From Pseudidiomarina sediminum DSM 21906 (GTDB lineage: Bacteria > Pseudomonadota > Gammaproteobacteria > Enterobacterales > Alteromonadaceae), in NCBI RefSeq assembly GCF_000423165.1, contig NZ_AUHL01000007.1:62001-126000 (forward strand): a stretch of 64,000 nucleotides of DNA, in the 5' to 3' direction. Every line of letters starts with the position of its first letter. Position 1 is the first letter of the stretch. The notes below the pieces were generated by a model, which saw only the letters and a program-made list of their open reading frames with translations, did not search any database and had not been told where the DNA came from. Of this stretch, positions 34,957 to 38,577 are shown one piece after another. The position numbers were made by a program, and so were the translations under genes.

Positions 34957-36000
34957 ATGCGTTTAGCTCAACGTCCGATCGACCTTATCGGTCAAACTGA
35001 CATGATTCGGGTACGTTCATTATCAGAACTTACGGGTTGTGATATTTGGCTGAAACTCGAGTCCCAAAACCCCGGCGGGTCAATTAAAGATCGGGCGGCG
35101 TACCAGATGATTAAAGACGCCATGGACAGTGGCGAGTTGGAGCCTGGCATGACCGTTGTTGAAGGTACCGCCGGCAACACTGGTATCGGTCTTGCCATTG
35201 TTGCACGTGCCTTGGGGTTAAACATGCTGGCGGTGATGCCTAATGATCAAACGCCTGAAAAAGAGCGGATGATCCGCTTGCACGGTGCCGAGCTAAAAAC
35301 CGTCGATCCTGTGCCATTTCGCAATGACAATCACTTTTATCACACTGCACGGAAGCTTGCCGAAGCACGTGATGATCATTGGTGGGCAAACCAGTTTGAG
35401 AACACCAGCAATGCCCGCGCGCACTACTTAGGGACAGGGCCTGAGATCTGGCAGCAAACCAATGGTGAGGTCGATATTTTGGTGTCGGTGGCGGGCACCG
35501 GCGGTACGATTGCCGGTAACTCGATGTATTTGAAAGAGCGCAATCCAGATTTACAGGTTTGGCTGGCCGACCCTGATGGTTCGGGCATTTATAGCTATTT
35601 GAAGCAAGGTGAGTATATTGCTCAAGGCAGCTCGTTTACGGAAGGTATTGGCATCATGCGCTTAGTGGAGAACTTCAAGCAGGCGCGGATTGATGCTGCG
35701 GTGAACTTGCCCGATCAAGACTTAGTTGCTCTATCGCGTTTTGTGCGTGACAACGATGCTATTGTGTTAGGCAGTAGCTCGACCTTGAATCTCGCGGCAG
35801 CGTTGCAAGCCGCCACCTTGCATGGTCCGGGGAAAACCATTGTCACCTTTGCTTGTGATCTTGGTGAACGTTCGGCGAGCAAACTCTACAATCGCGACTA
35901 CTTGCAACAACGTGGCTTGTCGTTAGAGCTTGAGGCCATTCCTGAATTGATCGCACGCTACCGCGACAGTGGTGAGCGTGTCTGGTACGCGGCTAAGTAA
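34957..36000 (+). CDS. PLP-dependent cysteine synthase family protein
   Basis: A 347-residue fold-type II PLP enzyme: ESQNPGGSIKDRAAYQMIKD with the PLP lysine at K44, TAGNTGIGLAIVARALG (substrate loop), VAGTGGTIAGNS (phosphate loop), and a late GSSSTLNLAAALQAA. It resembles O-acetylserine sulfhydrylases, but is longer than CysK/CysM (about 310-323) with a C-terminal extension (LYNRDYLQQRGLSLELEAIP), and the usual TSGNT loop reads TAGNT. That makes cysteine synthase the best call, with cystathionine beta-synthase-like or desulfhydrase-like activity possible. Co-directional with the RcsF-like gene 14 bp upstream; ends overlap the GNAT gene by 8 bp. Confidence 0.8.
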   Translation: MRLAQRPIDLIGQTDMIRVRSLSELTGCDIWLKLESQNPGGSIKDRAAYQMIKDAMDSGELEPGMTVVEGTAGNTGIGLAIVARALGLNMLAVMPNDQTPEKERMIRLHGAELKTVDPVPFRNDNHFYHTARKLAEARDDHWWANQFENTSNARAHYLGTGPEIWQQTNGEVDILVSVAGTGGTIAGNSMYLKERNPDLQVWLADPDGSGIYSYLKQGEYIAQGSSFTEGIGIMRLVENFKQARIDAAVNLPDQDLVALSRFVRDNDAIVLGSSSTLNLAAALQAATLHGPGKTIVTFACDLGERSASKLYNRDYLQQRGLSLELEAIPELIARYRDSGERVWYAAK

Positions 36001-36451
36001 AGCTTAGCCGCATACGGTAGCCATCATCATGGCCAGGGTAGTAATCGGGGAGAAGGTCAACCACTTCAAAGCCGTAATCGCGATACAAGGCGATGGCGGC
36101 CGCATTGTCACATTTTACTTCTAAGGATAAGGCTTGAGCGCCACCTGACGTTGCTTGTTGCAGGGCATGCTCAAGCAGTATGCGTCCAATCCCTTGGCCA
36201 CGTGCCGCGCAGGCAACCGCAAGCGAATAAAGCCGCCAGATGCGGCTGTTTTTCCGGGTTAAGATCAGGCTATACCCTAGCAGTTGTCCCGTGTCCTCAG
36301 CAGTAACCACGTACAGCTGCGCGCTAGGTCGTTGCATGAGACGCTGAAAGCTCTGCCGACCAATTTGACTGTAGTTGAAAGTCGCCGCCTCAAGTGCCAC
36401 TAAGGCGTCAAGGTCGGCGCGTGTGGCCGGACGAGGAAGGCATTGCGTCAT
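35993..36451 (-). CDS. GNAT acetyltransferase coupled to the RLAN/RimK-like ligase
   Basis: A 152-residue N-acetyltransferase. The acetyl-CoA loop is in VACAARGQGIGRILLEHALQ (about residues 80-99), preceded by GYSLILTRKNSRIWRLYSLA and followed by LSLEVKCDNAAAIALYRDYG FEV, a typical GNAT order. Its ATG overlaps the stop of the upstream ligase gene by one base (TAATG), so it is translationally coupled. It probably acetylates the same metabolite or peptide product that the ligase makes or uses, an inference from the coupling. RimI-like function on ribosomal proteins is an alternative. Confidence 0.85.
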   Translation of the reverse strand: MTQCLPRPATRADLDALVALEAATFNYSQIGRQSFQRLMQRPSAQLYVVTAEDTGQLLGYSLILTRKNSRIWRLYSLAVACAARGQGIGRILLEHALQQATSGGAQALSLEVKCDNAAAIALYRDYGFEVVDLLPDYYPGHDDGYRMRLSFT

Positions 36452-37917
36452 TACTTTTCGTCCAAGCGACGGGCAAAGTCACGCATGATGATGTGATAGA
36501 GTTCGTCGCCGAGCAATTGGTCTTCAACACCGGCTTCGATGGACGGGTTGTCATTGATTTCAATAATGACAGGGCCACGGTCGATAACTTTCATATCAAC
36601 GCCATAGAGGCCATCGCCAATTAAACGGGTTGCTTGTAAGGCGACTTTCATCACTTCTTTCGGAACCTGTTGTGCACCTACGGTTTCAAAGCCGCCTGAT
36701 TTACTGCGGCTGCTGGCACTGGCATGGTTATAGATCTGCCAATGGCCGCGCGCCATATAATATTTACAGGCATAGATAGGCCGATTGTTAAGAATGCCAA
36801 TCCGCCAATCGTACTCGGTGCGCACATACTCTTGCGCGAGCAAAATGGTCGAGGTCTCAAACAACTGTGCAGCGATGGTTTTTAAGGCCTCGATATTCTC
36901 GGCTTTCTCGACGCCAATTGAGAACGAACCGTCCGGAATTTTCAACACCACTGGGTAGCCTAAACGCTCGCCAATGGCTTCGTAGTCAATCGCTTGCTGA
37001 CTTAACAGAAGTTCCGTTTTAGGTGTTGGAATACGATGCTTATCGAGCAACTCCTTCAAGAACACTTTATTAGCGCATTGAACAATCGATTGCGGCGCGT
37101 CAATCACCACCATGCCGTTGGCTTCCGCTTTCTTCGCGAAATGATAGGTATGGTGATTGATACGCGTGGTTTCGCGAATAAAGAGCGCATCGAATTCCAA
37201 CAAGCGATTGTAATCATCAGCAGTGATAAGCTCAGCATCAATATCTTCCGCTTTCGCGGCCTTGATAAACTTCTGCAAGGCTTTTTTATCACTGGTCGGG
37301 ATCGCTTCGCTTGGGTCGTGCAAGATCGCTAAGTCATAGCGGTAGTCTTTGCGCGCGCGCGCTTTGCGCCATACACGTTTACTAAAGCTATCGAGAGCGT
37401 TACCAAAAAAGGTTTGCTGGGCATCATCAAGCTCAGATAAATAGCCAGGCTGTAGTTGATGGATGAACCAGCGTCCTTGGCAGGCAAACTCAACCCATAA
37501 GATCGGGCAAGGGTAGCGATCGAAAATCTGGCGCGCCACGTTATTCAGTTGCGCGTTTTGGGCTTGGCCGAAACAAATCAATGTACGCAGCGATTGACCA
37601 TCACTGTGCTGCTCAAGGTACTTGCTCAACTGTTTGTCGGTGTTGGCAGGCAACACCAATTGGTAGTGTGAGAAGTTGGCTAAGTCATTAATTGTCGCGA
37701 CGGCAGGTAACACCCGCTGACCGCGCGCTTCAGCAAGCAAGCTGACATAATAGCCAGTCGACAAATAGCTTAAATCGCCACACAAGTTAAGTACTTGTGT
37801 GCGCGGTTGCGCGTTTTGTTGCTGCAAATAGTCACTCGCTGCCATAATCGACTGACTTGGGTAATAGGGGTGCCAATCGGCACGATCATCAAGGATGATT
37901 AAAGCTGCGTTTTGCAT
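36451..37917 (-). CDS. RLAN-domain RimK-like ATP-grasp ligase
   Basis: A 488-residue protein. Residues about 1-150 match the RLAN (RimK-like ATP-grasp N-terminal) domain (ALIILDDRADWHPYYPSQSI, YLSTGYYVSLLAEARGQRVL). The C-terminal half is a RimK-type ATP-grasp: FIRETTRINHHTYHFAKKAE, NKVFLKELLDKHRIPTPKTE, PVVLKIPDGSFSIGVEKAEN, then the Mg-binding EINDNPS at about residues 453-459. These enzymes join a carboxylate to an amine with ATP, for example adding glutamate to peptides or proteins. The substrate is unknown. ATG 37917 follows GGAGTTTTT; GNAT is coupled downstream. Confidence 0.88.
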   Translation of the reverse strand: MQNAALIILDDRADWHPYYPSQSIMAASDYLQQQNAQPRTQVLNLCGDLSYLSTGYYVSLLAEARGQRVLPAVATINDLANFSHYQLVLPANTDKQLSKYLEQHSDGQSLRTLICFGQAQNAQLNNVARQIFDRYPCPILWVEFACQGRWFIHQLQPGYLSELDDAQQTFFGNALDSFSKRVWRKARARKDYRYDLAILHDPSEAIPTSDKKALQKFIKAAKAEDIDAELITADDYNRLLEFDALFIRETTRINHHTYHFAKKAEANGMVVIDAPQSIVQCANKVFLKELLDKHRIPTPKTELLLSQQAIDYEAIGERLGYPVVLKIPDGSFSIGVEKAENIEALKTIAAQLFETSTILLAQEYVRTEYDWRIGILNNRPIYACKYYMARGHWQIYNHASASSRSKSGGFETVGAQQVPKEVMKVALQATRLIGDGLYGVDMKVIDRGPVIIEINDNPSIEAGVEDQLLGDELYHIIMRDFARRLDEK

Positions 37918-38070
37918 AAAAACTCCGCACGGAAACTGCGCGCATATTTAAGGTTAAATGAACGAAAACACAAGAGAAATTTACAGTATTACCTAACAAA
38001 AAAGGGTAGCAGATAAAAACCAATACGCTATCCTTACTTTTGGATTCAATCATCGCAAGGAGAATACCCG

Positions 38071-38577
38071 ATGCTGACGCTGCTGGCGCGCTTTTTACGT
38101 GCCCTAAACTCAGAGTCAGGGGCATGGGCACTGGCCATCGCTTTTGTACTTGGAATGATTATGGGGTTCACCCCGTTATGGCGTGTCCATAACCTTGTCA
38201 TTCTGCTTATCGCCTTACTTTTCCGAGTAAACCTTTCCGGTTTTATTCTCAGTTTCGTCATTTGTTCAGGAATCGCGTACTTACTTGATCCGCTGTTTCA
38301 CCAGGTGGGCTTTGCGATTCTCTCAGCTGAGAGCTGGCAGCCGGTTTGGCAGTCCATGTATAGTTCCGCGTTCTGGCGCGTGGTGCAGTTCCATCACACC
38401 ATTACGCTGGGGAGTTTAGTGATTAGCCTAGCATTCGCACCTATTCTAGCTTTGGTGAGTTTCTGGGTGGTGAGTCAATATCGCCAACGGATCCAAACCT
38501 GGTTTAATAAGCTCAAAATTGTGCAAGCGCTAAAAGCCAATCGCTTTTGGGCGATTTACTCAGATTTAAGAGGTTAA
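38071..38577 (+). CDS. TIGR03546 family membrane protein
   Basis: A 168-residue protein with three or four membrane segments (WALAIAFVLGMIMGFTPLWR, LVILLIALLFRVNLSGFILS, LGSLVISLAFAPILALVSFW). FVLGMIMGFTPLWRVHNLV fits the TIGR03546/DUF2062-like pattern, where GxxxGFxP-like segments recur. The function is unknown. It is 4 bp upstream of the TIGR03545 gene, its constant companion, so the two probably form a membrane complex. The ribosome-binding site is AAGGAG. Confidence 0.82.
   Translation: MLTLLARFLRALNSESGAWALAIAFVLGMIMGFTPLWRVHNLVILLIALLFRVNLSGFILSFVICSGIAYLLDPLFHQVGFAILSAESWQPVWQSMYSSAFWRVVQFHHTITLGSLVISLAFAPILALVSFWVVSQYRQRIQTWFNKLKIVQALKANRFWAIYSDLRG

Follow-up and report, generated by a model that had tools for sequence, protein, structure and literature searches.

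A ligase with an RLAN domain and a RimK-type ATP-grasp domain and a GNAT acetyltransferase, encoded by adjacent genes of Pseudidiomarina sediminum DSM 21906, very probably constitute a real two-step system, since related pairs stay together in many bacteria. Both genes lie in the 64,000-nucleotide stretch of DNA that was analysed (hereafter, the window). Their pairing is conserved, the catalytic residues are kept, and DUF3335, a C39-like domain that is fused to the GNAT in most related loci, is absent from this genome. We infer the substrates, the order of the steps, the roles of the RLAN and C39 domains and a small-molecule product. This kind of system was predicted before; what is new is the two-gene form that lacks C39, the occurrence of the pair in all 26 sampled genomes of the genus, and the lack of DUF3335 in this one.

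Results

The ligase and acetyltransferase genes share one base

The open reading frames and their domain matches define a 488-amino acid ligase (36451-37917, minus strand) and, directly after it, a RimI-like GNAT of 152 amino acids without a C39 domain (35993-36451, minus strand). As read from the window, the TAA stop of the ligase and the ATG start of the GNAT have one base in common, giving a TAATG junction (36449-36453, minus strand). The initial annotation had described an RLAN/RimK-like ligase and a GNAT with this overlap, and both the coordinates and the domains agree with that description.

At their 3′ ends, the GNAT gene and a convergent gene for a PLP-dependent synthase have 8 bases in common (35993-36000), and a divergent TIGR03546/TIGR03545 pair lies upstream of the ligase. 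These flanking genes are on the opposite strand, and were set aside as partners. A scan of positions 35900-38150 gave one promoter-like site (2.5 expected), located outside the gap upstream of the ligase, and six terminator-like sites against 2.6 expected (sd 1.7), of which one falls within this gap.

The ligase has a complete RimK-like unit and an added RLAN domain

In profile searches the RLAN domain (PF14401) was found at residues 28-173 of the ligase (37399-37836, minus strand), with 157.7 bits against a cut-off of 25 (E 2.2e-46). It is N-terminal to a RimK-type ATP-grasp domain (PF08443; 51.1 bits against 21, E 1.6e-13). The predicted model (mean pLDDT 82.3) was compared with solved structures. 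It matched RimK (7qys_L; Z 25.8, rmsd 2.7, 274 residues aligned), ArgX (3vpb_A; Z 25.1) and LysX (3vpd_A; Z 25.0), and the matches spanned residues 191-488. The closest solved structures include RimK with RpsF (5zk6) and ArgX with its LysW carrier (3vpb). On the predicted model and these matches, residues 194-488 (36454-37338, minus strand) form by themselves a complete RimK/LysX/ArgX-like ATP-grasp unit, so that RLAN can be considered an added domain. In the alignment, K326, D441, E453 and N455 are kept in all 188 ligase rows and E363 in 170 of them. The columns are aligned to RimK, those of the first four to residues of its ATP/Mg site, and this site is intact in the ligase.

The ligase is not RimK itself. 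It shares with this ribosomal protein S6 glutamate ligase the fold and the aligned ATP/Mg residues, but it carries the extra RLAN domain, scores below the family cut-off (TIGR00768; 92.7 against 143.4 bits), and a separate canonical RimK, with 283.8 bits, is encoded in the genome. With LysX and ArgX, the enzymes of LysW-dependent lysine and arginine synthesis, it has the fold in common (Z ∼25) and presumably the ligation of amino acids; the RLAN domain again sets it apart, as does a score of 86.8 against the 275.6 bits required by the LysX_arch model.

The acetyltransferase is related to RimI

The GNAT domain of the second protein is recognized by PF00583 (E 3.3e-18). Its nearest model is that of RimI, the S18 N-terminal acetyltransferase, but it remains below the equivalog cut-off (TIGR01575; 76.4 against 86.4 bits), and the genome encodes a separate canonical RimI (123.7 bits); an identity with RimI was thus ruled out. 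Since the GNAT that partners the ligase in Idiomarina piscisalsi scores 88.9 bits, TIGR01575 alone cannot tell RimI from the partner GNATs. With its own canonical RimK and RimI in the genome, the pair is neither of these enzymes.

Among solved structures, the GNAT is matched best by RimI; N-terminal acetyltransferases such as ARD1 and Naa50 are found in the ranks below, and other GNATs thereafter. The likeness to RimI and N-terminal acetyltransferases was also obtained with a profile that includes the fused forms and with a model of a fused relative. GNATs with other substrates, e.g., a nourseothricin acetyltransferase, are matched too, and the acetyltransferases for streptothricin and arsinothricin are matched weakly. 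Among 172 aligned GNATs, the position of the catalytic Glu of RimI is Glu in 171 and that of its catalytic Tyr is Tyr in 143. In 25 of the 122 fused GNATs the latter position is Phe, which counts against the two-step scheme favoured below. The P-loop motif is present in 156 of the 172 rows. The window GNAT and RimI have a YY motif in common; they differ at position 73, which is Thr in the RimI of this genome and Arg in 171 of the 172 GNATs (49/50 stand-alone and 122/122 fused).

The window GNAT also weakly matches the NAGGN synthetase model (E 3.3e-8). NAGGN synthetase is a fusion of a GNAT and an ATP-grasp ligase, in which both activities act on a dipeptide; in the window, the ligase and the GNAT are separate genes. 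The equivalog cut-off of the synthetase model, TIGR03103, was not reached anywhere in the genome (the best score, from a different locus, was 139.5 against 569 bits), and this enzyme was discarded. A compatible-solute pathway similar to that of NAGGN (N-acetylglutaminylglutamine amide), run by a separate ligase and GNAT in place of the fused enzyme, would follow the same logic of GNAT, ATP-grasp and peptidase, and the genus is marine to saline. Relatives that carry the pair, among the best 80 of at least 587 matches, include Dyella, Rhodanobacter and Pseudomonas, which are largely not halophiles. Given this and the TIGR03103 score, we regard such a pathway as very improbable.

The pairing persists through changes of gene order

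PF14401 was searched for in 59 genomes of the family, 369 of the class, 26 of the genus and 14 controls. Matches were found in 32/59, 81/369 and 26/26 genomes, respectively, and in none of the 14 controls. The family and class searches gave 111 distinct ligase genomes, including that of the window, and the ligase loci of the other 110 were taken with their flanks. A related GNAT was found beside the ligase, i.e., within 3 kb, in 91 of the 111 loci, some of which have one intervening gene (e.g., L093, L101, L130 and L157). At this distance the GNAT is fused to DUF3335 in 78 loci and lacks it in 13. Of the remainder, 16 loci have C39_2, GCS2 and/or FGase instead (all three in 13), and four have none of these. 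In two of the four, L098 and L129, the ligase is near a contig end, and in the genomes behind three of them (L098, L129 and L166) DUF3335 is encoded on a different contig. As a rough control, the rest of the flanks (mostly ∼8 kb per side) yielded only three more GNAT matches (L077, L092 and L155).

Of the 78 fused GNATs, 41 are located upstream of the ligase on its own strand and 20 downstream of it; 14 are divergent and two convergent, and one counts as overlapping by the definition of the open reading frames. Among 80 named loci, which are the best 80 of at least 587 matches and hence not a random sample, a GNAT was present in 78 and was fused in 41. Within the genus, the GNAT comes directly after the ligase, with both genes on one strand, in 26/26 genomes (in L278 the available sequence ends within the GNAT), and the two genes overlap by one base in 13 of them, as TAATG in 11 and TGATG in two. 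Because adjacency persists through changes of order, these data are strong evidence that the ligase and the GNAT share a function. The functional pairing proposed in the initial annotation is thereby upheld, and separation of the two genes in most relatives, which would have argued against it, was not what we found.

The GNAT could instead be an accessory detoxifying or regulatory acetyltransferase with a substrate of its own, merely co-expressed with the ligase. GNATs are versatile enzymes, the weak streptothricin and arsinothricin acetyltransferase matches mentioned above would fit such a role, and in the 16 loci with C39_2, GCS2 and/or FGase the ligase does without a GNAT. An association that outlasts changes in order and orientation and is found throughout the sampled genus, together with the retention of the family-specific Arg and of the RimI Glu position in 171 of 172 GNATs, makes this improbable.

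FastTree trees were built from 172 GNAT and 188 ligase rows, leaving out those with fewer than 110 and 380 matched residues, respectively; many forks are open, and L091, L155, L165 and L167, among others, carry long-branch warnings. In the GNAT tree, the GNATs from the stand-alone operons of the family cluster with records from Desulfobulbaceae, Bacteroidales and others in a group of 15 rows (support 90) that lies apart from the fused GNATs. This group includes the GNAT of L155, which is 7.4 kb from its own ligase and is not a partner. A second stand-alone group comprises Dyella, Rhodanobacter and relatives (28 rows, support 79). The ligase tree has a similar compact-operon group of 12, with a support of 38 at its own node and 92-95 just around it. 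Distances in the two trees correlate (r 0.57, 167 loci; maximum of 0.10 in 300 permutations, which do not remove shared descent), and common descent of the hosts accounts for part of this correlation. The same compact ligase-GNAT order was observed in L223, L236 and L235, which are metagenome-assembled contigs of Bacteroidales and Desulfobulbaceae; these pairs may represent transfer between phyla or wrong binning.

A C39-like domain accompanies the ligase but is absent from the window genome

DUF3335 is present in 30/59 genomes of the family, in each case together with the ligase, and in 61/369 genomes of the class. After removal of five weak matches (G062, G074, G107, G174 and G350) from the 61, 55 of the 56 class genomes with strong DUF3335 have the ligase, which in a further 26 occurs in the absence of a strong DUF3335 match (55/26/1/287; p 3e-44, Fisher test, which ignores relatedness). 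The Cys, His and Asp assigned by their motifs to a papain-like triad are kept in 121, 121 and 119 of the 122 fused GNATs, respectively. The two-gene picture of the initial annotation was correct as to the pair but incomplete as a list of parts: it missed the GNAT-C39 (DUF3335) fusion of 78/111 loci, and also the type of locus with GCS2 and FGase.

No DUF3335 match was found in the window genome, which is 99.92% complete. In the genus, 21/26 genomes have the domain, each away from the ligase; G446 is a second near-complete genome without it, and the other three that lack it are 77-88% complete. A GNAT-DUF3335 gene adjoins purM and purN in G026, of the same genus, and in G028 and G010, of the same family (L251:3439-4560, L252:3223-4359 and L253:3298-4512); the identity of purM and purN in G028 was assigned by Pfam. 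In these three genomes, the ligase has a separate, stand-alone GNAT away from the GNAT-DUF3335 gene. Where G026 and G028 hold the latter, the purM site of the window genome is occupied by a GGDEF gene. Since this site is present without DUF3335 and the assembly is nearly complete, a gap in the assembly is an unlikely cause of the absence. A majority of the genomes of the genus, in which the fusion was read directly in G026 alone, thus seem to encode two GNATs of this kind, and of these the window species seems to have retained just the partner of the ligase.

Three Pseudomonas records (L211:7340-7801, L249:7307-7801 and L213) have a GNAT without C39 and near relatives with the fused form, and we interpret them as recent losses or truncations. 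A control genome, that of Methanosarcina acetivorans, has DUF3335 and no RLAN match; the partner of DUF3335 in this organism may offer a clue to what the C39 domain does.

Other types of locus and recurrent neighbours

The survey of gene neighbourhoods proposed in the initial annotation revealed a further part, DUF3335, which the window genome lacks, and a second type of locus with C39_2, GCS2 and FGase. In the latter type (type B; e.g., L120:7880-11328, and 15 others), a papain-like C39_2, GCS2 (of the glutamate-cysteine ligase type) and FGase (N-formylglutamate amidohydrolase) replace the GNAT, which indicates that acetylation is not needed everywhere. GCS2 and FGase are absent from the window flanks, and the locus is not of type B.

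In favour of an amide-bond chemistry, several recurrent neighbours belong to families that form or cleave such bonds: C39_2, GCS2, FGase, M14, DUF2817 and ArgE-like M20. DUF2817, for which a weak AstE/AspA match suggests a carboxypeptidase-like protein, was observed near the ligase and the GNAT-C39 gene or between them (L093:8669-9766) in 4/111 loci and in 11 of the 80 named loci (the best 80 of at least 587 matches). A zinc carboxypeptidase (M14) on the opposite strand adjoins the GNAT-ligase pair in 6/111 loci (L096:4950-6719), and a DUF155 (RMND1-like) gene was found near the ligase in 14/111 (L070:9430-10251). ArgE-like (15/111) and ArgA-like (6/111) neighbours may reflect shared synteny and not function. 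The largest other neighbour cluster (20/111 loci, in nine near the ligase) lies at scattered distances, and its only scanned member is a histidine kinase; it was set aside as a partner. Among open reading frames of at least 60 amino acids, any small gene near the ligase recurs in at most 3/111 loci, which counts against the two-step scheme favoured below.

Discussion

RLAN and RLAN-RimK amidoligase neighbourhoods with GNAT/C39 were reportedly described by Iyer et al. in 2009, who are said to have predicted such a system. A passage of PMC10318531 cites that work for GNAT-DUF3335 fusions. In PMC4431377, some of the same authors link GNATs to a different ATP-grasp family, R2K.3. Our search of the open-licence literature found no experimental work on the ligase-GNAT pair or its product. 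The kind of system therefore counts as already predicted, and the suggestion of the initial annotation that the pathway is undescribed was too strong. The window locus shares with those neighbourhoods the ligase architecture (PF14401 plus ATP-grasp) and a GNAT from the same family next to it, and differs from them in that its GNAT has no DUF3335/C39, that no DUF3335 was found genome-wide, and that it is a compact two-gene operon.

For the two proteins, we give an even chance to a scheme in which they act in turn, with the ligase forming an amide bond and the GNAT capping the alpha-amine, to yield an intracellular, N-acetylated peptide-like product. In a first step, modelled on the chemistry of RimK, LysX and ArgX, the ligase would activate a carboxylate with ATP and link it to an amine, such as that of an amino acid or a short peptide; the RLAN domain probably binds one of the substrates. 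The GNAT would then acetylate the free alpha-amine. Acetylation as the second step, which the initial annotation suggested, makes sense given the likeness of the GNAT to enzymes that acetylate N-terminal alpha-amines. In most relatives, the papain-like C39 domain on the GNAT chain may trim, release or transfer the product, a function for which the window genome has no such domain.

The main rival explanation is protein modification, i.e., the ligase would add amino acids to a particular protein, the GNAT would cap the added residue or another amine of that protein, and C39 would reverse the reaction. RimK adds amino acids to ribosomal protein S6, and because both RimI and RimK act on proteins, the likeness of the pair to them fits a protein target equally well. 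The solved relatives point in the same direction, with RimK and ArgX in the company of RpsF and LysW (5zk6 and 3vpb) on the ligase side and RimI and NAT-type protein acetyltransferases on that of the GNAT. A peptidase beside a RimK-like ligase also recalls RimB, which, according to PMC12239564, cleaves the glutamates added by RimK. Nevertheless, canonical RimK and RimI are already present in the genome, no target candidate appeared among the annotated recurrent neighbours (a subset of the clusters), and type B loci, with their GCS2 and FGase, suggest a chemistry of small carboxylates and amines. We consider protein modification possible but rather doubtful.

The presence of the pair in every sampled genome of the genus and in numerous relatives, with its catalytic residues kept, points to a metabolic or protein-modifying function that is still to be described. 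Returning to the N-acetylated peptide-like product, we tentatively propose, with somewhat less than even confidence, that the ligase and a stand-alone GNAT are the minimal core of a widespread N-acetyl-peptide pathway, and that the window genome makes the unprocessed product and would offer the least complex setting for its discovery. Because a genome without C39 reduces the system to two enzymes, the question of the substrate can be tested directly in this organism.
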